Origin: Bacillota bacterium
GTDB taxonomy: Bacteria; Bacillota; Clostridia; Saccharofermentanales; Fastidiosipilaceae
NCBI GenBank assembly: GCA_030057555.1
Contig: JASGUU010000069.1
Coordinates: forward strand, 1-64,000
Length of the DNA stretch: 64,000 bases
Direction: 5' to 3'
Made by a program: the position numbers and the translations under genes. A model generated the notes under the pieces. It was given only the letters and a program-made list of their open reading frames with translations, had not been told where the DNA came from and did not search any database. Each line of letters begins with the position of its first letter. Within the stretch, counting starts at the first letter, position 1. Below are positions 15,922 to 63,857 of this stretch, one piece after another.

Positions 15922-16890
15922 TCAGCCGAGAGGGCGTTCGTCGATTACGACCCCATCGCAGATGTAGTCGTGAATACCCTGGCGCTTCTCGTTCACCAGA
16001 ATCATGACGGCGGAAACAATGGTGGTGATGCCGCCCGAGATGGCGGAGAGCAGTCCGAGGCCTACAAACTGGCGGAGGAAGATGCTGCCGCGCGAAAGCG
16101 TATAGCCGCTGGTGCTGACGGGGCGCAGCTTGAGGATCATCTTCCCCGGTGTACGTCCACCGGTAAGGACCGGTATGACGACCATGTAGAGCGTGCTGAT
16201 GAGCAACAGGACCAGGTACAGGATGAACATATTGCCGATCAAGCTGAAGGTGAAGTCAAAGATCGGCTCGGCGAACGGGTTCTCGCTGTAGCCTCTGTAT
16301 TCCTCGAGTCCGCTCCAGTCGGTCGCCGCGAGGTTGCCGATGGTCGTGACCAAATACACGATGACGATGATGCTGCTGGGGATGGAGAGAAACAGGGAAT
16401 CCAGCAGATAGGCACCAAAGCGACGACCCTTCGCCGCGAGTTTGACGTAACGGCGATTGCCGTCGGGATACTCGAGGAGCATGACGGGGTCGGCGGCGTA
16501 GGGCTGCTGGTAGCCTCCCGGCTGCTGGGTGTACTGGGGCTGCTGCTGGTAGCCTCCCGGCTGCTGACTGTACTGGGGCTGCTGCTGGTAGCCTCCCGGC
16601 TGCTGGCTGTACTGAGGCTGCTGCTGGTAGCCTCCCGGCTGCTGGCTGTACTGGGGCTGCTGCTGGTAGCCTCCCGGCTGCTGGCTGTACTGGGGCTGCT
16701 GCTGGTAGCCTCCCGGCTGCTGGCTGTACTGAGGCTGCTGCTGGTAGCCGCCCGGCTGCTGGCTGTACTGAGGCTGCTGGTAACCGCCCGGCTGCTGTGC
16801 ATACTGTGCAGGATCAGGCTGGGGGGCGGCATTCTGGGCGGCTGCAGGTGTTTCCGAGGCTTCCGGATTGGGCTGCTGATCTTGGTTCAT
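15922..16890 (-). CDS. RDD family membrane protein with a Gln/Tyr/Pro-rich repeat N-terminus
   Basis: A 322-residue protein; the start at 16890 has AAAGG upstream. After about 30 hydrophilic residues come eight units of the form PQYSQQPGGYQQQ (first and last variant), then an RDD domain with the arginine/aspartate helix (RRFGAYLLDSLF), two further hydrophobic segments and GRTPGKMILKLRPV. RDD proteins are polytopic and of poorly known function, some acting in ion or cofactor transport. The disordered repeat tail should be cytoplasmic. A TATAAT-like -10 lies at 16969-16974 on this strand without a good -35. A minisatellite underlies the repeats. Confidence 0.85.
   Translation of the reverse strand: MNQDQQPNPEASETPAAAQNAAPQPDPAQYAQQPGGYQQPQYSQQPGGYQQQPQYSQQPGGYQQQPQYSQQPGGYQQQPQYSQQPGGYQQQPQYSQQPGGYQQQPQYSQQPGGYQQQPQYTQQPGGYQQPYAADPVMLLEYPDGNRRYVKLAAKGRRFGAYLLDSLFLSIPSSIIVIVYLVTTIGNLAATDWSGLEEYRGYSENPFAEPIFDFTFSLIGNMFILYLVLLLISTLYMVVIPVLTGGRTPGKMILKLRPVSTSGYTLSRGSIFLRQFVGLGLLSAISGGITTIVSAVMILVNEKRQGIHDYICDGVVIDERPLG
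16504..16805 (-). repeat. 39-bp minisatellite inside the RDD gene
   Basis: About eight in-frame 39-base units encode the 13-residue repeat PQYSQQPGGYQQQ; six are near-identical (differences such as GGGG versus GAGG) and the two ends are diverged. Near-identity at synonymous sites suggests recent slippage or recombination and length variation between strains. Confidence 0.9.
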
Positions 16891-20912: not shown

Positions 20913-21199
20913 GGCTTGTAGTGGTCCCGTCTCATTATGAAATCGAGTTTACCATTTGCAGGGAATTGTTAAGACGCTATGCGTGAACGATTTCTGTCGA
21001 AAATGGCTGTCAGCTGGGGTGATATGAGCAACCGGCTTTCATCCTGTACCCCAATACGTGTGAATGTATCAGCAACTGCTCAGAACGGGGTTGATACGCT
21101 GGCACGGCCTGCCCGAATGTGATGGCTGTTTAATGTCGGCCAACGCAATCTATTACACGTCAGGTACCCTGTGGTTCATTTAGGCTCCATTTTGGGGGC
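20913..21199. other. Intergenic region
   Basis: Upstream of the ABC exporter. A TTAACA-like -35 with a TAAACT-like -10 can be drawn on the minus strand near 20946-20972, but the spacing is only 15. No gene seen. Confidence 0.35.
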
Positions 21200-21941
21200 G
21201 CACGTCATATTTGCAGGACGAGTGTAGTCTTTTTCGAGTCTTCCTCAAACACCTGAAACACTGAAGTTCCAGCGCAGCTTGCATGCAGGCATAGGGAAGA
21301 TCCCTTCTCCTGTTGCCTGCGAAGTGGCCAGCCTCACAAACGGCCGGAATGTGAATGGGATAGGAATAGGATGGCGGGCGACGAGGCTGACAGGCACGAC
21401 CTGGCACATTCCAGAAGATTGTGAATCGATCCAGGTTCTCTTGCTCTGAAGTCGTGATAAAGGCGATCCCGACAGGCAGCGCGCCGCGCAGCGGTCAGGA
21501 TGGCGAGTAATCCAAATCGTTTTTTGGAAAACTCTTCGTTCTGACCAGAAACAGCCCTTTTGTGGTCAAGATGGGGAGTAATCCAAATCGTTTTTTGGAT
21601 AACTCCTCGTTTTGACCAGAAACAGCCCCTTTATGGTCAAGATGGGGAGTAATCCAAATCGTTTTTTGGATAACTCCTCGTTTTGACCAGAATCGACCCT
21701 TTTATGGTCAAGATGGCGAGTAATCCAAATCTTTTTTTGGATAACTCTTCGTTTTGACCAGAAACAACCCTTTTATGGTCAAGATGGGGACTTTTCCAAA
21801 TCTTTTTTTGGATAACTCCTCGTTTTGACCAGAATCGACCCTTTTATGGTCAGGATGGCGAGTAATCCAAATCGTTTTTTGGAATACTCCTCGTTTTGAC
21901 CACCAGAAGTCCGCAAACTGCTTTTCTACCCCTCTTGCCAG
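21200..21941. repeat. Repeat element, copy A (shared with 43256-43714)
   Basis: The 295 bases before the 71-bp array match 43256-43553, from GCACGTCATATTT through CTCAAACACCTGAAACAC to GATAAAGGCGATCCCGACAGG. After the array both copies share CCACCAGAAGTCCGCAA and TTGCCAGC. The two copies differ by substitutions, small indels and array length (six units versus two). On the minus strand both read IAFITTSEQENL followed by a diverging frame, possibly a decayed gene. I do not recognise a transposase or clear terminal repeats. Confidence 0.75.
21495..21901. repeat. 71-bp palindromic tandem array, six units
   Basis: Units begin at 21495, 21566, 21637, 21708, 21779 and 21850 (period exactly 71; the last is partial). 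Each unit has arms ATCCAAA / TTTGGAT and GGAGT / ACTCC within TCAA ... TTGA, a roughly 50-base imperfect palindrome. A 21-base linker starts CCAGAA and ends TGG, so that TGACCA / TGGTCA forms a second inverted repeat across unit boundaries. The outer arm pairs are TCAG/CTGA in unit 1, TCAA/TTGA in units 2-5 and TCAG/TTGA in unit 6. Confidence 0.9.
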
Positions 21942-21954
21942 CCGCCCTTCTGGC

Positions 21955-22086
21955 ATGCTCAACCGTCAGGCACCGCTGAAGTACAGGGACGATCAGGAGG
22001 TCCTGGACCTGGCGGGGACGCTTGCCGGATCAGTACAGCGCTTTGCCGATGTGCTGGAACGAGAGTTGCGTGAAATAGAGATATAG
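21955..22086 (+). CDS. Short ORF, 43 codons, possible gene fragment
   Basis: ATG 21955 to TAG 22084-22086 encodes an acidic helical peptide ending ADVLERELREIEI, with composition like a real protein C-terminus. No ribosome binding site is evident. It could be the surviving 3' end of a gene truncated by the repeat element next to it. Confidence 0.3.
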   Translation: MLNRQAPLKYRDDQEVLDLAGTLAGSVQRFADVLERELREIEI

Positions 22087-30154: not shown

Positions 30155-30559
30155 GGTTTTTCCCTCCTGATCCGGCCTTCTTTTCTTCGAGTATGCCTCA
30201 GATGGAAGTGCCTGTGGCCCTGACGGGTGTCATTTTCCATGCCGGCATGACCGCAAGTGATTTGAGTGGTCAGGATGGGGAGAAATCCAAATTATATTTT
30301 GGCAAAGTCCCGATCCTGACCAGAAACGGGGCATTCGTGGTCAGGATGAGGAGAAATCCAAATTGTATTTTGGCAAAGTCCCGATCCTGACCAGCTGCGG
30401 TTTCGAGGCGGCCAAAACACGCTGGAATTTAAAACCCCTTTTTGTGAGCTCCCCCTGGACGCCATCTTGACCCGTGGGAAGCCAGGAGCAGCTGGTGGAC
30501 AGCGGTGCTGAACCCGACCCGGACCCCCAAGCCTGCCAATCGGTGATAAACTACATAGC
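30155..30559. other. Intergenic region with a two-unit 71-bp array
   Basis: Contains the variant 71-bp array at 30270-30394 and otherwise no gene. The plus-strand end of the region should contain the promoter of the nine-gene operon; GATAAACT near 30549 is a possible -10. I looked for a preQ1 riboswitch before the QueT gene and found none. Confidence 0.5.
30270..30394. repeat. 71-bp palindromic array, variant type B, two units
   Basis: Units start at 30270 and 30341, again exactly 71 bases apart. The unit is diverged from the 21.5-kb type but keeps the design: TCAGGAT pairs with ATCCTGA as outer arms (seven pairs), inner CCAAA pairs with TTTGG, and TGACCAGAAAC links the units. The second unit is incomplete. 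No longer flanking homology with the other two loci was seen. Confidence 0.85.
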
Positions 30560-42190: not shown

Positions 42191-43255
42191 AGCCTCATCC
42201 AGACAAGGGATCCCGACAGCCGGCGCGCGGATAGCGGCACTGCCCGCCCGTGCACCAGGCGGATGTGTTTCTGCACCTCGGCGAAATGGTGGGCTATAAA
42301 TGTAAATAGGAGAGAAGTACCGGCAAAGCTGCACTCTGCCCCCGATGCCTGTTTTGCCCGTTTGAAATACGGGAGCTGCTGGCGAGTTTCGAGCATGAGA
42401 CGGCGAATCTGGCGGTGGCCGCCTGGGAGAGCAAACTGCTGCCGCGGGACTTCATCGTGCGCGCAAATGGCGAAGCGATACTGCTGTTGTGCTGGCTGCC
42501 TGCCGCGCGGGGGCGGAGGCGGAGCTCATTGCCATGCTTGAGAATCAGCAGGAGGATACGTTTACCGGTCCAAGCGACAATCTGGGTGTTGTCAGCTGAC
42601 TTCAGACCGACGTCTCCGTGTATGAGCCCGAAGCAGTCGTGGATAGCGGGGTATCAGCGAAGCTCATGTGCATCGGAGGCTGGCGCCGGGAGAGTAGGAG
42701 ACTCGGGCCAGAGCCGTATCCGGTTTTGTCAGAAGCGCCGTATGGTCGGAACTGGGCCCTGTTATACTGTCATCAGGCTGGCATGAGGACATCGCATAAG
42801 ATGAGTTCGCCAATGCACCTTTCTGCCCGACACGGGATGACTGGCGGCAGCTGTCGGCTCTGGAGGAGCTCGCCTCAGACGCGGCCTGGCCGGGCAGGCC
42901 CGGCAAACGCAGCGGTGTCGGAGCGCTATGCGGTGCCTGACGGCAGTGGTGAATGCCGAGTCTGGGACTTCGACATACGACGCGGTTTTGCGGTGATGCT
43001 GGAGGATCGACCGCTGCGTCCGCTCGTGATCCATGGTTCGCGCATCCTCTTCTCGGCCGCGGGTGAAGCGGGCAGAGGGCTCTATCTCTTCGTTCATGAT
43101 GATTGCGTCTGGAGACGACTGAGCCGGTTGCTGCGTTATCGTCTGCCGGCTCTGCGACGACAGGTTTCGGATGGCGGCCGGCCGGTATGATGCAGCCGCC
43201 CGTGCCTGCGCCTGTCCCTCACCCGCGCAGCCGCCATCCACGCACCTGCCTGGAT
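42191..43255. other. Region of decayed coding sequence
   Basis: No intact gene. Protein-like stretches appear in shifting plus-strand frames: ELLASFEHETANLAVAAWES around 42370-42430, ELIAMLENQQEDTFTG near 42520-42570, DDWRQLSALEELASDAAWPG near 42838-42897, and WDFDIRRGFAVMLEDRP near 42963-43013. Their order and composition suggest one or two genes broken by several frameshifts. I do not recognise the family. Confidence 0.4.
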
Positions 43256-43714
43256 GCACGTCATATTTGTCGGGGCGAGTAAAGTCATTTCCCGAGCTTT
43301 CCTCAAACACCTGAAACACCGAAGTTTTAGCTTGGCTTGCATACAGGCATATGGAAGATCACTTCTCCCGTGGCCAGCGTAGCGATCAGCCTCACATACT
43401 GCCGGAATGTGAATGGCATGCGATAGGATAGCGGACAGCGAGGCTGACAGACACGGTCTGGCACGTTCAAGGAGATTGTGAAGCGATTCAGGTTCTCCTG
43501 CTCAGAAGTCGTGATAAAGGCGATCCCGACAGGCAGCGCGCCCTTCTTCGTGGTCAAGATAGCGAGTAATCCAAATCTTTTTTTGGATAACTCTTCGTTT
43601 TGACCAGAAACGGCCCCTTTGTGGTCAAGATGGCGAGTAATCCAAATTATTTTTTGGATAACTCCTCGTTTTGACCACCAGAAGTCCGCAAGCTGCTGGT
43701 TTCCCTTTGCCAGC
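43256..43714. repeat. Repeat element, copy C (shared with 21200-21941)
   Basis: Matches copy A from GCACGTCATATTTG through the 71-bp array to TTTGCCAGC. On the minus strand an open frame of 76 codons (43327-43557) includes ALPVGIAFITTSEQENL, matching the copy A reading before indels separate them. Its array has two units instead of six. Confidence 0.75.
43554..43676. repeat. 71-bp palindromic array, type A, two units
   Basis: Units start at 43554 and 43625, exactly 71 apart. Arms ATCCAAA / TTTGGAT and the outer TCAA / TTGA are kept; the array ends in the same GACCACCAGAAGTCC as the six-unit array. Confidence 0.88.
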
Positions 43715-43801
43715 TGTGCTCATAACATGATCACCCGCTTCCCGATATTCTTGACGTGCTTCCCGCCTGCTTCGCTGTCCCAGATCCTGCGCGAAATACC
43801 G

Positions 43802-49531: not shown

Positions 49532-49597
49532 CGACCGCCTGAATACCACGAGATGCGGTCGCCACGACCGCCTGAATACCACGAGATGCGGTCGTGG
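49532..49597 (+). repeat. 33-bp tandem duplication and palindrome in the tRNA-Leu leader
   Basis: CGACCGC, a 16-base spacer and GCGGTCG occur twice (from 49532 and 49565, 33 apart). The second GCGGTCG is the 5' end of the tRNA. In the second copy the arms extend to CCACGACCGC (49562-49571) and GCGGTCGTGG (49588-49597), ten perfect pairs between leader and tRNA. Confidence 0.85.
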
Positions 49598-49672
49598 TGG
49601 AATTGGCAGACACGCTGGATTTAGGTTCCAGTGACGGGAGTCATGCAGGTTCAAGTCCTGTCGGCCGCACCA
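49588..49672 (+). tRNA. tRNA-Leu (anticodon UAG)
   Basis: An 85-base gene including an encoded CCA. The acceptor stem is GCGGTCG / CGGCCGC with one G-T pair; the D-arm begins TGGTGGAATTGGCAGACACG, typical of leucine tRNAs. The anticodon stem CTGGA / TCCAG carries the loop TTTAGGT (anticodon TAG); there is a long variable arm and the T-loop GGTTCAAGTCC. It reads CUN codons. It lies 84 bases after lepA and is followed by its own terminator. Confidence 0.97.
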
Positions 49673-49970: not shown

Positions 49971-52900
49971 ATGTCGTGGATGAAATCCCCAAAGAACACG
50001 AAGCAGATCCTCAACAAAGCGCTGAGCCTGCTCCTGCTCGCTGCCTTCCTGCTGGCGCTTTTTACACCGAATCTGGTTGACGCCGGAGACGAAGGCGAAG
50101 CAGTGAATCCATCTCTCTCTCCCGAGACCATCGTGACGGAGATGGGAGCGGATGAGGTGCCTCCCGCGTCAACGGAGCAGGGCACAGACGAGGAGCTTCC
50201 TCAGGCAGACGAGGAAACCACAGCGTCCGTCCCCGCTGAAGAGAGCGCGACGCTGGAGGAACAGCCGCCTGTTGAAGGTCAGGAGTCAGAGCCCGCAGAC
50301 ACGGAGCTGCCGTTGGATACGAGTGTGCCTGTCGAGGAGTCCGAGTCTGCGGACACGACCCCTGCCACAGAGGACCTGCAGCGTTCCAGAGGGGCAACGG
50401 AAACGACGCCCGTGACCAGAGGAGGCGGGGATCCCGGCGCTGTTTTCCTGTACGAAATCATCGCTGAGGGCACGGCGGTACGCGTGACCGGCTGGACGGG
50501 CACGGAGACGACCGTGACCATCCCCGAGACGATCGAAGGCCTGCCCGTGACGGAGATCACCAGAGGCGATGTCTCATCTTTTCAGGCGCGTGGACTGACG
50601 GCTGTCAGCATCCCAAAGACCGTTACGAAGATCGGCGACTACGCATTCGCCGAAAATGACATCGCGACACTCGACATTCCCGCCGACAGCAGCCTGGTGG
50701 AAATCGGCGCCTACGCTTTTGCCGACAACCTCCTCACCGGCTTCACCGCACCCTCGACCCTGCGGATCATCGGCGGACAGGCTTTCGCACAGAACAGACT
50801 CACCGCCATCAGTCTGAATGTCGGCCTGGAGTCGATTGGCAATGAAGCCTTCGCGATGAACTGTCTGACGGAGGCGACCGTGCCGGACTCGGTGACGAGT
50901 TTTGGCAGCAGCGTCTTTGACGGCAACGGTGGCCGCTTCGTCAAGGTCTATACGGACAGCTCCGCCGTTCCCCCATACGAGAACAACGGTCCCGTGTCCT
51001 TTGGCTATGTTGTCAATCCGATTACCGTGACGATCAAATATATCGATCAGAAAACGCGCGCTGAAGTCATGTCGAGTGTCACGCTGGGCGACGACATGAC
51101 AGATGCCAACGGCGTCTTTGTCAAGGACGTGGAAATGACCTATGAGCCGCCGACCCTGTCGGGCTACTATGTCGAGCCTTCCATTACCTTTACGCCGGAT
51201 CGGGACGGCTATGTCCTGACCATTGAATACATCCCCGAGGGACCGCCGACACTGACCTGTCCCGCCACCATCCGGCTGCCGGAGGGTCTCACGCCTGAGG
51301 AAGCCGAGGCACGGATTCTCGATGCCATATCAGCTGTGGACTATACAGGGAAGGACATCTCGGACAGGGTGACGGTCGACCTCAGCGGGCTCGATGTGGG
51401 GACGAACGGCTTCTACTCCATCACGATCAGTCTGACGGATGACTACGGCTACGAGATCAGTGAAACCGTGCAGGTGCAGGTGGGTGCCTACGACTGGTTC
51501 AACCATGAAATCGGCGGTGGCTGGGTACTGGGCGACTTCACCTTCTCCGCCGATGGAAAAACCCTCAACGGTCTCAGTTCGCAGGGCATCACGAAGCTGC
51601 GCAACCTGCCTGCCGGCGCCAGAAATCTCGTCCTGCCGGCGCACAGCTACAACAACCCCGAAGTACCGATCATGGCGATTGCGAGCCAGGCTTTTTACAG
51701 CAACATCTACAACGTTCCACTTGAGACAGTGGATTTCTCGGCGTTGAAGGAGCTGCGGACGATCGGCAGCTACGCGTTCTACTCCTACAGCCGGCCGCGG
51801 GCGAGTGCGATCAGCACGGTTATCGGCTTTAACGAACTGACGAAGCTGGAATCGATTGGCGACTATGCCTTCAGGGGGACGACCGCTGCGTTCGATCTCG
51901 ACGGCTTTAACAACCTGCAAACGATCGGATATTCCGCCTTCGCAAGCTACAGCACGAGCTATCAGGGACCCACGATCACGCTTGGCTCCCTGCCCGCTCT
52001 GACAAGGATCGGCGCCTCCGCCTTCAGCGGTGCAACGGTGCCGGTGGCGGATCTGCGCGGCATGCCCAATCTGACCGGCATTGAAAGCTCCACCTTTTAT
52101 TATGCCAAAGTGAAGGAGATTTACTTCCCCGAGGTCGATCACAACTTTTCGATCGGCTATCAGGCATTTTACGGAGAAAGCAGCGAGCTCACGATGATTG
52201 ACTTTACGCCGATCGCGGAGCATCTCACCTCGATCGGCTCAGAGGCGTTCAGACATGTCTACAGTCCCTCCAATCTCGCAACCGTGGTGGTCTGGCCCGA
52301 CATGCCGAAGCTCTCCTCCGTCGGAAGCCGGATCTTCTGCAGCCGCAATCTGGACACGAGCCTCGATCTCTCGGGCAGTCCGCTGCTCGTGACGATTGGC
52401 TCCAATGCCTTTGAGCAGGCGGGCCTGACCGGGGTCGTGCTGCCTGAGACGGTGGAGAATATCGGTTCCTCTGCCTTCTACAACAACAGGATCACGGAGC
52501 TCGATTTCAGTCTGCTGCCCGCCCTGAAGACGATTGGGAATTCCGCCTTCCAGACGAACCGCTTCACTGCCGTTGATCTCAGCAACCTGGCCAGTCTGAC
52601 CAGCATCGGCGATTCTGCATTCAGATACAATCAGATTGAGTCGGTGAATCTGGATGAGCTGCCGCAGCTGAAAACGATCGGCAACTATGCCTTTGCCAAC
52701 AACAGAATCACGGACCTCACGTTCGGCGCTTTGCCGGAACTCGAGGTCATCAAAACATATGCGTTCTACAGCAACCAGCTGGCCAGCCTGACGATTGCCA
52801 ATCTGGAGAAGCTGAAGCGCATTGAGAATTACGCCTTTTACGCGAACAGACTGACGGATCTGACCATCAGCGACAATCCCGAGCTGAGTTCGCTCGGGAA

Positions 52901-55900
52901 CTACACGTTCTACAGCAACCAGCTGGCCGAAGTGACCTTGAACAACCTGCCCGGGCTCCTGGAGCTCGAGCCCTACGTTTTTACCAGCAATCCCGGCCAC
53001 GATGCCTATTACAACAACGTCGTCGTCTGGGATCTGCCGGCCGAAGCCTCTGTCATTCCCTCAAAGGCGAACTACCTCGTCAATCCTGATACCGAAGAGC
53101 CCCTGACAGGTCCCTGGGTCGCCGATGACTTCACCTACACGGTCACGAACGGCGAGGCCACGATTACGGGCTTTTCCGAGCAGGGAGCCAAGCGCTTCGG
53201 CTCGGGTGTGAGACCGGTTGTCTTCCCGGCAGGTGATCCGGACGGGCTTCCCGTCGTCGGCATCGCGGATTATTCCTTCGCCAACAAAAACATCGGTTCC
53301 ATCGATCTCACGGGCATGACGAAGCTGCGCACGATCGGGGTGAATGCGTTCTATAACAACGCGCTGAGCGAGGTCAGCTTCAACGGCCTCGACAGTCTCA
53401 CAGAAATTGGCAACAATGCCTTCGGCAACAACAAACTGACCGAGCTGGACCTCGGCATTCTGCCGAAACTGACCAGAATCGGCGGCTCCGCCTTCTCCGG
53501 CAATACGATTTCGAAGCTCAAGCTTGACGGCGCTGTTTCTCTCGAGTCCATCGATTCATCCGCCTTTCAGGGCAACCGCATTTCGGAGCTCAACTTCGGC
53601 TACCTGCCGAAACTGCGGCTGATTGGCAGCTCCGCCTTCTACAGTCAGGGCGGCGATCCTCTCAGTCTCGATCTGTCGGGTCTTCCCGCCCTGGAAAGCA
53701 TCGGATCCAGAGCGTTCGAGAGCACGAACCTGGTCTCTCTCAACTTTGGCGATCTGAAGAATCTCACGATCATCAATTCTGATGCCTTTGCGAGTCACAG
53801 GCTGACAGGCGAGCTGGATCTGTCAGGTCTGGATGCCCTGACCACAATCGGTTCCGATGCCTTTGAGTGCTATTCGTCCAGTGCCTACGGCATCACAAAC
53901 GTCTTATTCCCCGCGAGCGGCAACCTGCTCCACATCAACAACTATGCCTTCCGCTACAACCGGCTGACGGAACTGGATCTGAGTCCGCTGAACAGACTCA
54001 GCACGATCGGCAGCTATGCCTTTGCCTACAACTACATCGAAAACATCATATTCCCTCAGGATCCACCTCTGACATCCATCGGCAGCTACGCCTTCCAGTC
54101 CAACAGGTTGACGGAGCTGGATCTGAGGCCGCTCAGCAGGCTGAAGTATCTCTACTATTCGACCTTCGGCTACAACGCAATCGGCGATGTCTGGGCCCCG
54201 GACAGCCTCACCTCGCTCAACAATTATACTTTCATGTATAACAAGTTGAATGTGGGATCCTCTGTTTACTCGGAAGCGATTATTCACATTGGTGATCCGA
54301 CAGGACTCAGCAACTACCTGTCCGGTGGCTGGGGACATCTGATTAACCCCAAAAAACTCTACTTCACCTACAAGGATCGCGAAGGCAACGAAATCCTGCC
54401 GAGCCGGACCGAGTACTACAAAGGCAGCAATGCCAGTGAAACCTATTATGCGCCTGACATGGCCGAGTATCTGGCCAATCCGGCTTCGAAGACGGTCACG
54501 TTCGAGGAGCATCAGAACGAGTACTTCATTAACTTCGTCTATGACAAGCTCGAGTTCTTCGAGACAGACGCGTTTACACTCGGACATACCAATGTCGGCA
54601 CGAACCGGGCCTATGTCGGAAATCACCTGTATACGAATCTGACGCTCGCACTTTCGTCCGGGCAGGAGACTTACGAGAACGTCGAGCTGCGCGTCTATTA
54701 CAATCCGGAATATATCAACAGCGCGGAGGTCACGGCACCGTTGATGGGCGATGCCTATACGATCACGAAGCCGACCGACGGCAAACCTTACATTTCCTTC
54801 CATTTCCCAAAGCTCGTCGGTGGCCAGTCCTTTGTAATTCCCGTAACCTGGGCCTTCAAGACGGATTACACGCCGCAGGATCAGGCCGAAATCCTCTACA
54901 CGCAGCTGAGAAGTGCTGACAATCAGGTGCTGGCCTTTGCCACCGATGGGGCAGGGCATCCCGCGAACCCGACGATTGAGGCCTACTACCATGAGCCCTA
55001 CATAGAAAAGGGTGCCGTGGGAACGAACCAGTACAACGGTGGCCCCCGCGTGGCCGGCAGCTTCACGACGACGGAAATCGAGGGTGAGGACATCGTTCAC
55101 GTAGACGTGCCCGTTGATGTGGCGTACAGCTTCCGCATCATGCAGACGGCCAACACGTCCAACTTCGACCGCAATATCGAGACGATCACCTACATCGACA
55201 CGCTCCCGACCTATCAGGCGGTGGAGGACGGACAGATTGTCACCAGGACGGCCGTCATCAATTTGTCGACGAGCCCCGGCTGGTCCTACTATGATCCCGT
55301 CAGCGAAATGCCCGTCGAAGGCCCGACGGCCTACGGCATTGTGACCGTGCCCAACTACGACAAGGACTTTGCCTACTCGTATCCGACGCTGAATCTGCAG
55401 TTCCCCGGCGGCATCAAGGATCAGACGGTCAAGAATCAGGTGGAGGCCAGGCTCACACCGGCGAACAGGCCGGACGGGGAGCCGATCATCGTGACCTCGG
55501 ACGATGTCAACATCTCCCTGATCGCGGGTACGGTGCCGAATCCGCCCGTATATGTCACGGTGACAACGCTGACCAAGACAGTCGCGCCCCGGACGGTGCT
55601 CGACTATCAGCCGACGAAGGAGGCCGCGGGCTTTACCTGGCCGGTGCGCTTTACCGTCGGCACCGATGATCTCGCCCTGGCCAAGGTCTTCACCAATGTG
55701 GTCTTCGAGGACTTCGCCCTGGACGACCGTCTGGTCTACACGAAGGTCCAACTGCCCAGCACGGGCCATGTGGCGGTCGTGAAGGCCTGGCGGGCCGACG
55801 GTACGGAGATAGAGGATTACGGCGGGGAGACCAGCGGTGGTGTCTTCGAGTTCCCGCCCTACAGTCCGGGCATGGAACGCATCGACAGGATCACGGTCGA

Positions 55901-58900: not shown

Positions 58901-61900
58901 GACGGCCATCTACTATCTCGAAGAGACGGCGACAGTGGACGATACCTGGCTGCTGCCGGAAAAAATGCTGAAGATCGACCTGCCGGCCGTGATCCGGAGC
59001 AATCCCACCGGCGTGGCCACTGTCTTCATGGAGAACCAGAAGAAGGTCGGCGAGATCCTGGTCTCCAAGTACGACCGCTATACAGGTACCAAGCTCACGG
59101 GCATCACATACACGCTCTACAGAGGGACGAAGGACAACTACCTGAGCGATCCCAATCCGGTCGTGAAGAAAACGGGTTCCTCCGGCTATCTGAAGTTTGA
59201 CGGTCTGCTGCCGGGAAACTATATCCTGGAAGAGACGGCGACCCTGGAAGGCTACATCCGGGATGAGACGCTGTATGAGATCGAGGTGACGCCCGACAAT
59301 CGCTACTTCTACTACTACCTCTACAACATGAGGGCTGGTGAGCTGCTCGACATCCCGGTCAAAAAGGTCTGGCTCGGCGAAGTGCCGGATTATGCCGAGG
59401 GCGAGGGCCTCGTCGTCGAGCTCTACGAAGGGACCAGTACCACGCCCATGGAGTCTGCGCTGCTGACGGCGGAGGGCGGCTGGTCGCATACCTTTGCGGG
59501 CCTGCTCAAGCGCGACAACCAGGGCAGGGTCTACACCTATGTCATCCGCGAAGGGGCCATCCCTGCGGGCTACGAGATCGCGGTCGGCGAGGGCACGGTC
59601 AAGGGTTCCTCCTACGGCCTCGACGTGACAGTGGCGGATGAAGTGGTTCTGAAGAACCACGCTCTGGGCGACCTGACGGTGACAAAGACCTGGCAGGAGC
59701 GCTATGACGAACTCCGGCCGGCTGCCGTCGTGGTGACCCTGATGCGGGCGGCATACAACGCCGATACGGGCGCCTATGGTGAATTCACCAGCCAGGGCGA
59801 TCCTGTCAACATTTCCGCTGCGACGGGTTGGGCCCATACCTGGACCGGGCTCAAGACGCATGATGTGGATGGCAGGCCCTATCGCTACAAAGTCGTCGAG
59901 GCCGCTGTCACAGGCTATCAGCTGGTGGCCCACACACCGGCCCAGGTTGAACTGACAGGCGGAGCCGAGGCCGATATCGAACTCGTCAACCGCCAGTATC
60001 TGACGCAGAAGGCAAGAAAAGCCTGGTCCGACAATGCGCCTGCGGTCAAGCCGGAGATTGTATTCCAGCTGGTGAGAAAAACGGACGACATGACCGACTT
60101 TGAGCTTGTCGACGGGGCGGCTCTCAAGACCATTCCTGACGGCTCCGCGGAGGTCGAGTGGAACGGCCTGCCGGCCACGGACGAAGAGGGGAACGTCTAT
60201 ACCTACTCCGTTTATGAGGGCTGCATCAACGACGACGATGAATTTGTCCAGCTGATACCGGAGAACTACCGCGCCGAAACCACCTTTGCACCGATCCTGA
60301 ATGAGGACAACGTCGAGATCGGCACGGAGATCATCGTAACCAACACCTGGCAGGAGACCAGTCTCACGGCAACGAAGACCTGGTCGGGCAATGCGCCGAC
60401 GGTCAAGCCGGAGGTCGAACTGGTGCTGCGCCAGAACGGCGAGCTCTACAACGGCACGGGTGTGCCGGTCACCCTCCAGAATGGAGATACCGAGGCCAGC
60501 TGGAAGAAGCTGCCGCGCTACTATTACACAGTGGATGCGGACGGGACGGTGACCGAGCATGAGTATCGCTACTCGGTCGATGAGATCAATGTCCCGGAGA
60601 GCTATGACAAAGTCCTCGACAGCGATACCGGGGTCCGGAACGAATATCATTCCGTCGTTCTGGAGGCGAGGAAGATCTTTGACCTCGACCTCGTCGAGGA
60701 AGACTTTGCCGGAACGGACATGAGGCCGGCGGAAATCCGCTTCAGCCTCTACAAGTCGACGTACGATGCCAATACGGGCACGACCTCCATGCAGAAGTAT
60801 GATGAAGTCGTTCTCGACGGTGTGGTCGACGCGGACATCACGGATGCCGGCGAGATTGAAGAGTGGCACTACATCTGGAACCGTCTGCCGAAGTACTATG
60901 AGGTCGTGGATGCGGATGGTTCGATTACGCGCCATGAGAACGAGTACAGGGTCATTGAAGAGATCATCCCGAGGTACTACGAGCTGCTGGGCTCGGAGGA
61001 CGTATCTGAGGGAGAGCTCTTCAGCTGGCAGGTTACAAACCGCTACCGCAACGCCTTTAATGCCCACAAGACCTGGGATATCGGCGCCAAAACTGTGGCC
61101 GGGCTCGGTGGTCTGCCGTCCGTTCAGCTGCAGCTGTACCGCGGCATCGTTCTGGACGACGGGACGCGGGTAGCTACTTCCGACTGGACGGAGACGGTCG
61201 GCGAGCCCGTCACACTGGACGGCCAGGCGGACGATCCCCTGCCGGGCGTCAGCCGCGAGACGACACAGGCCGACAGCCTCACCTGGACCTATGCCTGGTT
61301 CGATCTGCCGATTTACGGTGAGTGCACGGTTGACAGTCTGGCGGACTATGGCATCGCAAACGGGGATCGCGTGCGCTACTTCTACTACGTCGAGGAGGAC
61401 AGCACGGCGCCGGCTCTGGAAGACTACTCGCTCGATGCCATCAGTTCGGCCTCGACACTGCTCGTCAACCGTCTCGACAAAACAGACTTCACGGCGAAGA
61501 AGGAATGGGTCGACGGACCTGTGGACGACAGACCCGCGGTCGAATTCGTCCTCTACGCCGACTACCTCGACCCGGCTACGAATGAGAGGAGCACGGCCGA
61601 GGAGGTCAGACGTGTCACACTGGACGGTGTGGCTGACGATACCGGTGAAACCGGGTCCTGGACCTGCCATTTCGAGAATCTCAGGCATTATGTCAAGAAC
61701 GCGGATGGCAGCTACCTGAAGGATGCTGACGGACAGCCGGTTCTCTACCGCTACTTCGTAAAGGAAGAGAACGTACCGACCGACTACCGGATTTCGAGCG
61801 AGACGGACAGCACGATTACAAACAGCTATGTCATTCCGAAATTTGACATCGAAGTCAAAAAGACCTGGAACGGCGGCTATCCTGCCGACTACGAGCGGAT

Positions 61901-63857
61901 CGAGTTCGAGCTCTACCGCACGTCGGCCGTGATGACGGAGCCTGAACTCGCGAGCTCGAGCTACGAGCGTGTGGCCCTGTCCGAGACGGAATTTGCCTAT
62001 ACCTTCAAGGACATGGACAAAACCGACATCAACGGCAACGTCTACAGCTACTTCGTCAGGGAGCTGGGTGTGGTCGACGGCATCCAGAGCATCGACCAGA
62101 ACCAGTACAGCGTCGAGATCGACGGTCTGGATGTCAGCAACAGCTACATCCTCAAGCTGACCGGCGTTACGGCGGAGAAGGTCTGGGTCTACGGTTCGGA
62201 TGAGAACAGGCCGGACGTCTGCTTCCAGCTCTGGCGTTCGCTGGAGGGCGGAGAAGCGGAGCCGGTGCCGGAAGCCGAAGTGAAGCGGCTGCCGGAGGAC
62301 GGCACGACGGTCGTCTGGGAGGACATCGAGGCGGAGGCCGCGTACGGCAGGCCGTATACCTTCAGTGTCAGGGAGGGTGTTCTGGACAGCGCCACCGGCG
62401 TATTCACGGAGGGCCTGCCGGAGAACTATAACTACACTGTCGAATATGACGGCCTCCAGGTGACCAACACCTATGTGTCGCCCCCGATCGACATCGAGGC
62501 GACGAAGACCTGGGTCGGCGGCGAGAACGTCGAGAGGCCGGAACTCTACTTCCGGTTGATGCGCGAAAGCGCCGCTGAGATCGCCCACCCGGTACCGGGT
62601 GCCGAGCTGCTCGGACCCTTCAACGCTGATGCCAGCCTGGCCTGGACGGGAGTCGACGAGACCGACCCGCAGGAGAACCGCTACCGCTACTTTGTCGAGG
62701 AGGGTGTGATTGACGCCGAAAGCGGCGACTTCCTTCCCGGCACACCGGAGCACTACGAGCTCGGCGGCACCGCTCTCGCGCTGGTCAACACCTATGTGCC
62801 CGAGATCGACAGGGTGGAGGCAGAGAAGGTCTGGGTCGGCGGCGAAGCGACCATCCGCCCGACGATCTACTTCGAACTGCAGCGCAAAACCGAGGCGATG
62901 GACGACTATGAAGCCGTGCCCGACGCCGCCGTGCAGGAACTGGCGTCCGGTGTCGTAACGGTCGGCTGGGATGTGGAAATCGAGGATGCCTCGGGGCTGC
63001 CCTATACATTCCGGGTTGTGGAGGGCGATCTTGTGGGCGATGTCTTCGTCGCCACCGCACCCGAAAAATACGAGGCGGCCGCCGACGGCCTCACGATCAC
63101 GAATACCTATGTCATCAGCCGCGGCCATGTGACGGCCACAAAGACCTGGCAGGGCGGCTCTGCGCTCGAACGGCCGGAGGTATTCTTCCGCCTGCGCCGG
63201 AGTGTGGACGGACAGAGCGAGGATGTCCCGGACGCCGAGCTGCTGAAGCTGGAGGGTGATTCAGTCACCTGGACGGATGTAGAGCTCGAGACCTTCGCGG
63301 GTGTTTCCTATGAGTTCGCCGTCGTTGAGTACAGTTTTGACGAGACAACGGGCGAGTACGTGGAACGGGTGCCCAACTACGAGTCGGAGGTATCCGGTCT
63401 CGAGGTTACGAACATCTTTGTCTCTCCTGTCGGAGACGTCAGAGCGACGAAGACCTGGATCGACGGGCCCGGACGTGAGCATCCTGTGATCTGGTTCAAG
63501 CTCTTCCGTGAGTCCGAACTCGTGGAACGCGAGGCCGTGCCGGATGTCGAGCTCTTTGAGCTCGCGGACGGCGTGACGGAAGCTCTGTGGACCGACCTCG
63601 AACTTACGGACATCGAAGGCCATGACTATGTCTTTACGGTCATGGAGGTGAACGCAGCGGGCGAGGACAGCACACCCGAGCATTACAGCAAGCTCGAAGA
63701 GGGTCTGCATGTGGTCAACAGCTTTGTGCCGTACAGCGAGGATCCGGAGCCCATCCACAGGACCGGCAGAACCCGGGGCCTCGAGGCGCTCCCGGGCCTG
63801 ACCCTCATACTGGCGGCCGTGCTGATCCTGCTCAGGCGGAGGAGACAGGCAGGCTAG
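49971..63857 (+). CDS. Giant BspA-like LRR and Cna-B repeat surface protein
   Basis: About 4,628 residues (4,644 if ATG 49923 is used). In order: a signal peptide (LNKALSLLLLAAFLLALF); a Glu/Pro/Thr-rich spacer to about 150; BspA-type LRR_5 repeats (units such as IGNNAFGNNKLTELDL) at about 160-350 and 510-1455, split by a MucBP-like and an Ig-like segment; a second MucBP-like segment; about 900 beta-rich residues; about six SpaA-like domains (2440-3120); and thirteen Cna-B domains (3120-4595). Cna-B domains show the isopeptide pattern: Lys in KTW, Glu in VREG or VEEG, Asn in TNTYV. The tail is IHRTG, a hydrophobic helix and RRRR, like a sortase signal with altered first residues. Probably a wall-attached adhesin. 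Confidence 0.93.
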   Translation: MSWMKSPKNTKQILNKALSLLLLAAFLLALFTPNLVDAGDEGEAVNPSLSPETIVTEMGADEVPPASTEQGTDEELPQADEETTASVPAEESATLEEQPPVEGQESEPADTELPLDTSVPVEESESADTTPATEDLQRSRGATETTPVTRGGGDPGAVFLYEIIAEGTAVRVTGWTGTETTVTIPETIEGLPVTEITRGDVSSFQARGLTAVSIPKTVTKIGDYAFAENDIATLDIPADSSLVEIGAYAFADNLLTGFTAPSTLRIIGGQAFAQNRLTAISLNVGLESIGNEAFAMNCLTEATVPDSVTSFGSSVFDGNGGRFVKVYTDSSAVPPYENNGPVSFGYVVNPITVTIKYIDQKTRAEVMSSVTLGDDMTDANGVFVKDVEMTYEPPTLSGYYVEPSITFTPDRDGYVLTIEYIPEGPPTLTCPATIRLPEGLTPEEAEARILDAISAVDYTGKDISDRVTVDLSGLDVGTNGFYSITISLTDDYGYEISETVQVQVGAYDWFNHEIGGGWVLGDFTFSADGKTLNGLSSQGITKLRNLPAGARNLVLPAHSYNNPEVPIMAIASQAFYSNIYNVPLETVDFSALKELRTIGSYAFYSYSRPRASAISTVIGFNELTKLESIGDYAFRGTTAAFDLDGFNNLQTIGYSAFASYSTSYQGPTITLGSLPALTRIGASAFSGATVPVADLRGMPNLTGIESSTFYYAKVKEIYFPEVDHNFSIGYQAFYGESSELTMIDFTPIAEHLTSIGSEAFRHVYSPSNLATVVVWPDMPKLSSVGSRIFCSRNLDTSLDLSGSPLLVTIGSNAFEQAGLTGVVLPETVENIGSSAFYNNRITELDFSLLPALKTIGNSAFQTNRFTAVDLSNLASLTSIGDSAFRYNQIESVNLDELPQLKTIGNYAFANNRITDLTFGALPELEVIKTYAFYSNQLASLTIANLEKLKRIENYAFYANRLTDLTISDNPELSSLGNYTFYSNQLAEVTLNNLPGLLELEPYVFTSNPGHDAYYNNVVVWDLPAEASVIPSKANYLVNPDTEEPLTGPWVADDFTYTVTNGEATITGFSEQGAKRFGSGVRPVVFPAGDPDGLPVVGIADYSFANKNIGSIDLTGMTKLRTIGVNAFYNNALSEVSFNGLDSLTEIGNNAFGNNKLTELDLGILPKLTRIGGSAFSGNTISKLKLDGAVSLESIDSSAFQGNRISELNFGYLPKLRLIGSSAFYSQGGDPLSLDLSGLPALESIGSRAFESTNLVSLNFGDLKNLTIINSDAFASHRLTGELDLSGLDALTTIGSDAFECYSSSAYGITNVLFPASGNLLHINNYAFRYNRLTELDLSPLNRLSTIGSYAFAYNYIENIIFPQDPPLTSIGSYAFQSNRLTELDLRPLSRLKYLYYSTFGYNAIGDVWAPDSLTSLNNYTFMYNKLNVGSSVYSEAIIHIGDPTGLSNYLSGGWGHLINPKKLYFTYKDREGNEILPSRTEYYKGSNASETYYAPDMAEYLANPASKTVTFEEHQNEYFINFVYDKLEFFETDAFTLGHTNVGTNRAYVGNHLYTNLTLALSSGQETYENVELRVYYNPEYINSAEVTAPLMGDAYTITKPTDGKPYISFHFPKLVGGQSFVIPVTWAFKTDYTPQDQAEILYTQLRSADNQVLAFATDGAGHPANPTIEAYYHEPYIEKGAVGTNQYNGGPRVAGSFTTTEIEGEDIVHVDVPVDVAYSFRIMQTANTSNFDRNIETITYIDTLPTYQAVEDGQIVTRTAVINLSTSPGWSYYDPVSEMPVEGPTAYGIVTVPNYDKDFAYSYPTLNLQFPGGIKDQTVKNQVEARLTPANRPDGEPIIVTSDDVNISLIAGTVPNPPVYVTVTTLTKTVAPRTVLDYQPTKEAAGFTWPVRFTVGTDDLALAKVFTNVVFEDFALDDRLVYTKVQLPSTGHVAVVKAWRADGTEIEDYGGETSGGVFEFPPYSPGMERIDRITVDLGDREVMTGYSINVMTTFANPSDETADDYAYYDTENHANNYMPNSARVTASYTAEGESGDYSSGTVSDRVQILPFTLKAIPDKTQTFRSSEPGQDPTSQLPHYPGDEGTYTISIKRSLNGRPFTMTDADLPIENFRMVDLLPLDIVVKPEDIRLSAEFAAQPGAGFEMLADYGSTGRVAIIFTADSVAANVTTVASIDAKIDLAMSAGYHKNDLYMSFNTGPGHDWEYGQPVTADDLGDSPENPYMYDYVSLLLVKAQAMNAIKYVRNARLDTATGRLVGTGTWTEGIYTGDEEYFQYRLFVKNDTVEDRDKNEIYDVFPRYLDRMIQMNTQGQRANRGSAFSNRILAARLEGTTADEFRIEYTTDTTVANIPNGTEAGVYLRARSWVPAGPDGSAPEGATAMRIIPKDGSTGMIKKDDTLIVIVDAQAPPYNADTSGRRGYNSFVRIDDSLETFIEVPSVWNEVPTPLGTLRVGKRSRTFDPAKPGVVAYDVPLAGAEFTLYSESGIPLRTAVSNDDGFAVFEDLRVGTYLLAETAVPAGHYEPEESTQIKVERSVWEKQANLVYTVGPFYNEPVVSGTVVIEKRNAAGEIMPGISFALTDTASGDKYMATTGSDGRATFANVPYGAYTLTETNAPRLLAPIAPIMVKIDVPNKVVDYTGTAALRNDRANVALFKLGIRGALDSSKDLSQYTKSDGTVVAESWRFEIRNLTTVSESPRQVNYTSSHVRNGFRIEELRVGDLYEIEELSGPAQTQTVYIHNKTVYQFRINKAGVLVDADGEPFRAQSIYFPNARKTVDGAVVVTKVDTEGAPLQDAVFSLAMLNKATSTFEVLYEANSDADGRVTWDELEPGSYEIREVAAPVGYIRTSDVYRFVVEDFATTSMLTNSSYAHREGGLTHNFSFTAVNREINLSLVKRHLVATNVPEAEKDALLAQNPAYRAVAKPVGYDVYEVLAGATFTLYREVDVNGVKVREVIAENLVSDAEGLISVDGISGFSWDETAIYYLEETATVDDTWLLPEKMLKIDLPAVIRSNPTGVATVFMENQKKVGEILVSKYDRYTGTKLTGITYTLYRGTKDNYLSDPNPVVKKTGSSGYLKFDGLLPGNYILEETATLEGYIRDETLYEIEVTPDNRYFYYYLYNMRAGELLDIPVKKVWLGEVPDYAEGEGLVVELYEGTSTTPMESALLTAEGGWSHTFAGLLKRDNQGRVYTYVIREGAIPAGYEIAVGEGTVKGSSYGLDVTVADEVVLKNHALGDLTVTKTWQERYDELRPAAVVVTLMRAAYNADTGAYGEFTSQGDPVNISAATGWAHTWTGLKTHDVDGRPYRYKVVEAAVTGYQLVAHTPAQVELTGGAEADIELVNRQYLTQKARKAWSDNAPAVKPEIVFQLVRKTDDMTDFELVDGAALKTIPDGSAEVEWNGLPATDEEGNVYTYSVYEGCINDDDEFVQLIPENYRAETTFAPILNEDNVEIGTEIIVTNTWQETSLTATKTWSGNAPTVKPEVELVLRQNGELYNGTGVPVTLQNGDTEASWKKLPRYYYTVDADGTVTEHEYRYSVDEINVPESYDKVLDSDTGVRNEYHSVVLEARKIFDLDLVEEDFAGTDMRPAEIRFSLYKSTYDANTGTTSMQKYDEVVLDGVVDADITDAGEIEEWHYIWNRLPKYYEVVDADGSITRHENEYRVIEEIIPRYYELLGSEDVSEGELFSWQVTNRYRNAFNAHKTWDIGAKTVAGLGGLPSVQLQLYRGIVLDDGTRVATSDWTETVGEPVTLDGQADDPLPGVSRETTQADSLTWTYAWFDLPIYGECTVDSLADYGIANGDRVRYFYYVEEDSTAPALEDYSLDAISSASTLLVNRLDKTDFTAKKEWVDGPVDDRPAVEFVLYADYLDPATNERSTAEEVRRVTLDGVADDTGETGSWTCHFENLRHYVKNADGSYLKDADGQPVLYRYFVKEENVPTDYRISSETDSTITNSYVIPKFDIEVKKTWNGGYPADYERIEFELYRTSAVMTEPELASSSYERVALSETEFAYTFKDMDKTDINGNVYSYFVRELGVVDGIQSIDQNQYSVEIDGLDVSNSYILKLTGVTAEKVWVYGSDENRPDVCFQLWRSLEGGEAEPVPEAEVKRLPEDGTTVVWEDIEAEAAYGRPYTFSVREGVLDSATGVFTEGLPENYNYTVEYDGLQVTNTYVSPPIDIEATKTWVGGENVERPELYFRLMRESAAEIAHPVPGAELLGPFNADASLAWTGVDETDPQENRYRYFVEEGVIDAESGDFLPGTPEHYELGGTALALVNTYVPEIDRVEAEKVWVGGEATIRPTIYFELQRKTEAMDDYEAVPDAAVQELASGVVTVGWDVEIEDASGLPYTFRVVEGDLVGDVFVATAPEKYEAAADGLTITNTYVISRGHVTATKTWQGGSALERPEVFFRLRRSVDGQSEDVPDAELLKLEGDSVTWTDVELETFAGVSYEFAVVEYSFDETTGEYVERVPNYESEVSGLEVTNIFVSPVGDVRATKTWIDGPGREHPVIWFKLFRESELVEREAVPDVELFELADGVTEALWTDLELTDIEGHDYVFTVMEVNAAGEDSTPEHYSKLEEGLHVVNSFVPYSEDPEPIHRTGRTRGLEALPGLTLILAAVLILLRRRRQAG

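Follow-up and report, generated by a model that had tools for sequence, protein, structure and literature searches.

Hairpin arrays with a 71-bp period are probably the internal module of a BOX-like composite MITE

BOX elements consist of a boxA and a boxC module around a variable array of boxB modules, and carry terminal inverted repeats (TIRs) and target duplications (Croucher et al. 2011, PMC3049150). One genome holds 125 of these elements, and boxB folds largely on its own (PMC3049150). Transcripts of Correia elements are reported targets of RNase III (PMC3049150). Here we analysed a window of 64,000 nucleotides (the whole stretch of DNA presented above) in which an earlier note had described ten units with a 71-bp period at three loci. 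We confirmed all ten, correcting their starts from 21495 to 21493, from 30270 to 30268 and from 43554 to 43552. We conclude, with a probability of about 0.78, that the arrays represent the inner module of a composite, non-autonomous transposon (MITE) with a BOX-like plan. This reading is based on TIRs, an excess of 8-bp target-site duplications (TSDs), the lack of coding function, dispersed intergenic copies and a congener site without the element. The arrays are not free-standing: the larger, MITE-like element that surrounds most of them had gone unnoticed, and an independent array as a kind of its own is disfavoured. The features of the three loci are as follows.

21154 to 21194, + strand: left end of a second MITE family (MITE-2), with TIR TACACGTCCGGCACCCTG and ending in CCATTTTG, the insertion target of element 1 (from the TIR pair and nested copies)
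21196 to 21219, + strand: 5' TIR of element 1 (GGGCGCACGTCA...)
21196 to 21492, + strand: 5' module of element 1, non-coding (from module matches and flank alignment)
21493 to 21901, + strand: hairpin array of element 1, six 54-nt hairpins and five 17-nt linkers, with hairpin starts at 21493, 21564, 21635, 21706, 21777 and 21848
21902 to 21966, + strand: truncated 3' module of element 1, 3' TIR lost (from alignment; the best 3' TIR comparison has 11 mismatches)
30268 to 30392, + strand: bare two-unit array of a divergent subtype, modules unrecognisable
43243 to 43250, + strand: left target-site duplicate CACCTGCC of element 3, matching the right copy at 6/8
43252 to 43275, + strand: 5' TIR of element 3
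43252 to 43551, + strand: 5' module of element 3
43552 to 43676, + strand: two-unit hairpin array of element 3
43677 to 43763, + strand: 3' module of element 3, including the 3' TIR at 43740-43763
43764 to 43771, + strand: right target-site duplicate CGCCTGCT of element 3

The first array thus belongs to a copy without a 3' TIR, the second is bare and the third lies in a complete copy. Elsewhere in the window, an RDD-like membrane protein gene contains an internal 39-bp tandem repeat encoding a QQPGGYQQQPQYS repeat (16503-16797), and an exact 33-bp tandem duplication overlaps the start of a tRNA gene (49532-49669), a possible integration or duplication scar. Large surface proteins with BspA-like leucine-rich repeats and Cna-B-like repeats, recognised by eye, are encoded at 50600-54100 and 59700-63500.

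Each unit is composed of a 54-nt imperfect hairpin (GGTC...GACC, up to 24 pairs and a 6-nt loop) and a 17-nt linker, which gives a period of exactly 71 bp. The window hairpins have fold z-scores of -6.4 to -9.1 on the + strand, in agreement with their first description as imperfect hairpins. The paired arm changes reported alongside are present as well: TCAA/TTGA, TCAG/CTGA in unit 1, TCAGGAT/ATCCTGA in the 30-kb type and a G-T state in the last unit. Stems differ between subtypes (CCAAA/TTTGG, GGCAA/TTGCC and TACAAA/TTTGTA) within a constant frame. A second inverted repeat across unit borders, also part of that description, does exist as TTGACC...GGTCAA; it is a mere consequence of neighbouring palindromes standing in tandem. 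No protein gene is attached to the arrays, as had been stated, and the reading frames of the arrays are not open, being blocked by the invariant TGA of TTGACC. The regularity of the hairpin repeats might recall CRISPR or integron attC arrays, a reading that we regard as barely conceivable. The 17-nt linkers keep their length and, for the most part, a shared consensus, so that there are no unique spacers, and neither reading frames or cassettes between units nor associated genes were seen. The earlier rejection of CRISPR therefore stands.

To delimit the element, we aligned the array flanks, which gave, for most arrays, the layout TIR, 5' module (~300 bp), n copies of the 54-nt hairpin and 17-nt linker, 3' module (~85 bp) and TIR. 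The TIRs are ~24 bp long (GGGTGCACGTCA..GTCGGGA / TCCCGAC..TGACGTGCACCC) and match at both ends in 24 copies, many of them at 0-4 mismatches of 24. Many copies are flanked by 8-bp TSDs, often imperfect, with a mean best match of 5.9/8 compared to 4.4/8 in permuted data (p<1/5000), and this excess persists after leaving out copies nested in MITE-2. Several arrays lack both modules (for example that at 30268 and those at L010, L032, L035 and L040). The 5' module, which has 40 matches in the source genome, contains no conserved frame among six and its indels do not come in threes. Together with the TGA in the array frames, these observations led us to reject a coding function of the element. A search of element 1 for promoter or terminator consensus sequences found none.

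MITE-2 is itself non-coding, with TIRs TACACGTCCGGCACCCTG / CAGGGGTGCCGGACGTGTA and copies at window positions 21154-21194 and at L012, L019, L028, L030, L038 and L009. About ten copies have the hairpin element inserted at the CCATTTTG site of MITE-2, which suggests that the nested composite, the hairpin element within MITE-2, has itself spread. Among the fetched loci there was no copy of the MITE-2 target without the interrupting element.

We also considered the REP/BIME-like family proposed earlier, whose palindromes a RAYT (Y1_Tnp) transposase would disperse. The family is indeed intergenic, palindromic, high-copy and clustered. However, the source genome, a 96% complete draft, yielded no Y1_Tnp match where controls were positive in 5 genomes, and the copies have 24-bp TIRs, 8-bp TSDs and a fixed head-to-tail period of 71 bp. 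We therefore consider a REP/BIME origin very improbable. A transposase supplied in trans would instead recognise the TIRs of the composite MITE. No transposase-bearing copy with matching TIRs was seen in either draft genome (source and congener, both incomplete), so that we infer mobilisation of the element. One candidate for an autonomous parent (TIR pair C7:7751/9626) proved spurious, as it encloses a TrkH-type potassium transporter gene.

The source genome (G000) is a draft of 2.9 Mb in 90 contigs, and that of the congener (G001) is also a draft. A BLAST search, following the earlier proposal to look for genome-wide intergenic copies, recovered 69 matches on both strands of the source genome (best E 6.5e-213; reverse-strand palindrome echoes included), so the hairpin repeats are not due to chance. 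Across the stretches fetched from both genomes there are 414 distinct units in 102 arrays (51 per genome) with n = 1-14; those of G001 are longer than those of the source genome, and array lengths may be underestimated since several contigs end inside arrays. Under a simple codon-based gene model, every array flanked by genes on both sides (71/71) is intergenic. Their orientation is even, with the upstream gene on the same or the opposite strand in 35 and 36 cases, and these 71 arrays thus show no transcript orientation bias.

On the congener contig syntenic to the window (G001:C169), the site at 43253-43763 corresponds to an intergenic region of ~240 bp that lacks the element; this single empty site is not base-exact, as ~1 kb of other source-genome sequence is also missing there. 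The congener equivalent of the second window site, that of the 30268 array, holds two elements. Arrays at the same site in both genomes have a similarity of 0.67-0.75, compared to 0.70 for random arrays. Since they are barely more alike than random ones, concerted evolution and reinsertion are indistinguishable.

The host range was assessed in several collections. The unit pattern was absent from the GTDB collection beyond the source genome and its congener, and IMG/VR contained none; no plasmid or phage record held the element. The 5' module was found in 2/98 relatives, and a covariance model of the unit had no match in 290 further genomes from the class under strict filters. In Rfam, nothing came near the gathering score, and sub-threshold miRNA matches are chance. 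By these searches, the hairpin-element family appears genus-restricted and found in two genomes only.

The geometry of the unit is strict. The hairpin is 54 nt long in 382/398 well-delimited cases and the unit-to-unit step is 71 bp in 270/299. Longer linkers in G001 are quantised in ~18-19-bp steps (34-36, 54-56), because a GC-rich palindromic repeat of 18-19 bp (CTGCACGCCGCGCAGCGG-like; noted at L029, L053 and in many 5' flanks) is present in variable number inside them as well as directly before arrays. Units that are ~83% alike mismatch in length in ~16% of pairs, compared to ~71% expected from the indel rate of the 5' module, where sequences of comparable identity differ by roughly one indel per 71 bp. 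Unit similarity within arrays falls from 0.90 between neighbours to 0.69 at lag 8, and one-unit copies of the element exist. At its start (AGAA) the linker resembles the 3' flank (CCAGAA), and at its end (CCTTTGT/CCTTTCGT) the 5' flank. These resemblances suggest that a one-unit element would expand through local head-to-tail duplications whose breakpoints lie in the flanks.

We next assessed the conservation of the fold. In 32 diverse units, 80.6% of cells are paired, compared to 77.7% (sd 0.9) in shuffled and at most 52% in slid alignments, and the covariation score of 0.224 exceeds both the column-shuffled value of 0.173 (0/500) and the slid values (at most 0.148). Standard pairs make up 92% over 20 pairs, against 79% under the tree null (0/300), which supports the earlier view that pairing is maintained in the units. 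The proposed covariation test was positive in aggregate only: per pair, none was significant against the tree null (lowest expected count 0.37), because the stem swaps represent few deep events. The outer GGTC/GACC is invariant, and mismatches persist at columns 12-13 and 16-17. Overall, unit geometry and fold look constrained.

Quasipalindrome correction by template switching is known to act on long near-perfect palindromes, and the paired changes could in principle be mutational, arising without selection on folding. The lack of per-pair significance is consistent with this. However, correction should not leave persistent mismatch positions, the length of the unit is constrained as well, and the process predicts by symmetry a 1:1 ratio of G-T to A-C states, where we observed 2:1. 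We therefore regard this explanation as unlikely. At well-formed columns, changes from Watson-Crick to G-T and to A-C numbered 64:32 (p=0.0014), compared to balanced control transitions in the unpaired 5' module (118:107); the excess is carried largely by columns 6 and 14 and is 33:23 without them.

The invariant outer GGTC/GACC and the constant period would also fit an array for a DNA-binding protein with a requirement for fixed 71-bp phasing, be it a nucleoid or replication protein or the transposase itself. Against it, the loop-proximal stem is swapped from CCA/TGG to GGC/GCC with pairing kept, which a sequence-specific site should not tolerate, and a G-T bias is unexpected of a double-stranded site; we find this reading doubtful, more so than template switching. 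In 89% and 77% of units the element strand is more stable than its complement, and a whole one-unit element has a fold z of -6.7 on that strand compared to -3.3 on the other. In a one-unit copy, the hairpin module is predicted to fold independently of the end modules. Conserved geometry and fold modestly favour the element strand, as RNA or ssDNA, and it is probably in this single-stranded form that the fold matters.

A tentative extension is that the arrays are tandem structured RNA (or ssDNA) modules useful to the host and travelling on the MITE, as processing sites, transcript insulators or sponges. Strict unit geometry, pairing above the tree null, element-strand stability with its G-T bias, and stem sequences swapped within one framework all point this way. 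The even orientation relative to genes, the restriction to one genus with a congener site lacking the element, and the absence of an Rfam family at gathering score argue against it, and we give it a minority share, above that of the other alternatives. Equally speculative is that the array is a selected RNA module on the BOX-like MITE whose fold is required in the transcript. If true, the hairpins would be precisely sized and serial, for example tandem RNase III substrates insulating host transcripts or yielding small RNAs, and stem sequence would be freely swappable provided that the 54+17 geometry stays. Under the composite MITE that we favour, hairpins would be kept since the single-stranded form of the element strand, most likely its transcript, has to fold; the ~24-bp stem would match in size an RNase III-type substrate or a block to read-through, and the element would be mainly a genomic parasite and not a host regulatory system. 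With length and pairing visibly constrained across 414 units from two genomes, the question why such hairpins multiply, and why their fold is retained, becomes testable.

In comparison with known systems, the element shares with REP/BIME and REPIN sequences short palindromes, high copy number and intergenic position, and differs in its true TIRs and TSDs, fixed period, single orientation per array and a genome without a RAYT match. Like Correia elements and RUP, which are classical bacterial MITEs, it is TIR-bounded and non-coding; unlike them it carries an internal tandem hairpin array, and to our knowledge none is known in either. The closest likeness is to BOX of Streptococcus pneumoniae and S. 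suis, likewise a composite MITE with TIRs and target duplications (PMC3049150). In both, two end modules enclose a tandem array, variable in length, of a hairpin module that folds on its own. Both also have about a hundred copies in dispersed positions, nested insertions and a size set by module number. The hairpin element differs from BOX in lineage, sequences and sizes, in its 54-nt hairpin and 17-nt linker with a strict 71-bp period, in its ~300-bp 5' module, in n up to 14 and in several stem-swapped subtypes within one framework, and no ISSpn2-like partner was identified in the two incomplete drafts. By analogy of architecture, we would therefore call it a BOX-like composite MITE rather than a BOX element, which suggests that the BOX plan, a multiplying hairpin enclosed by end modules, arose or has persisted outside streptococci.
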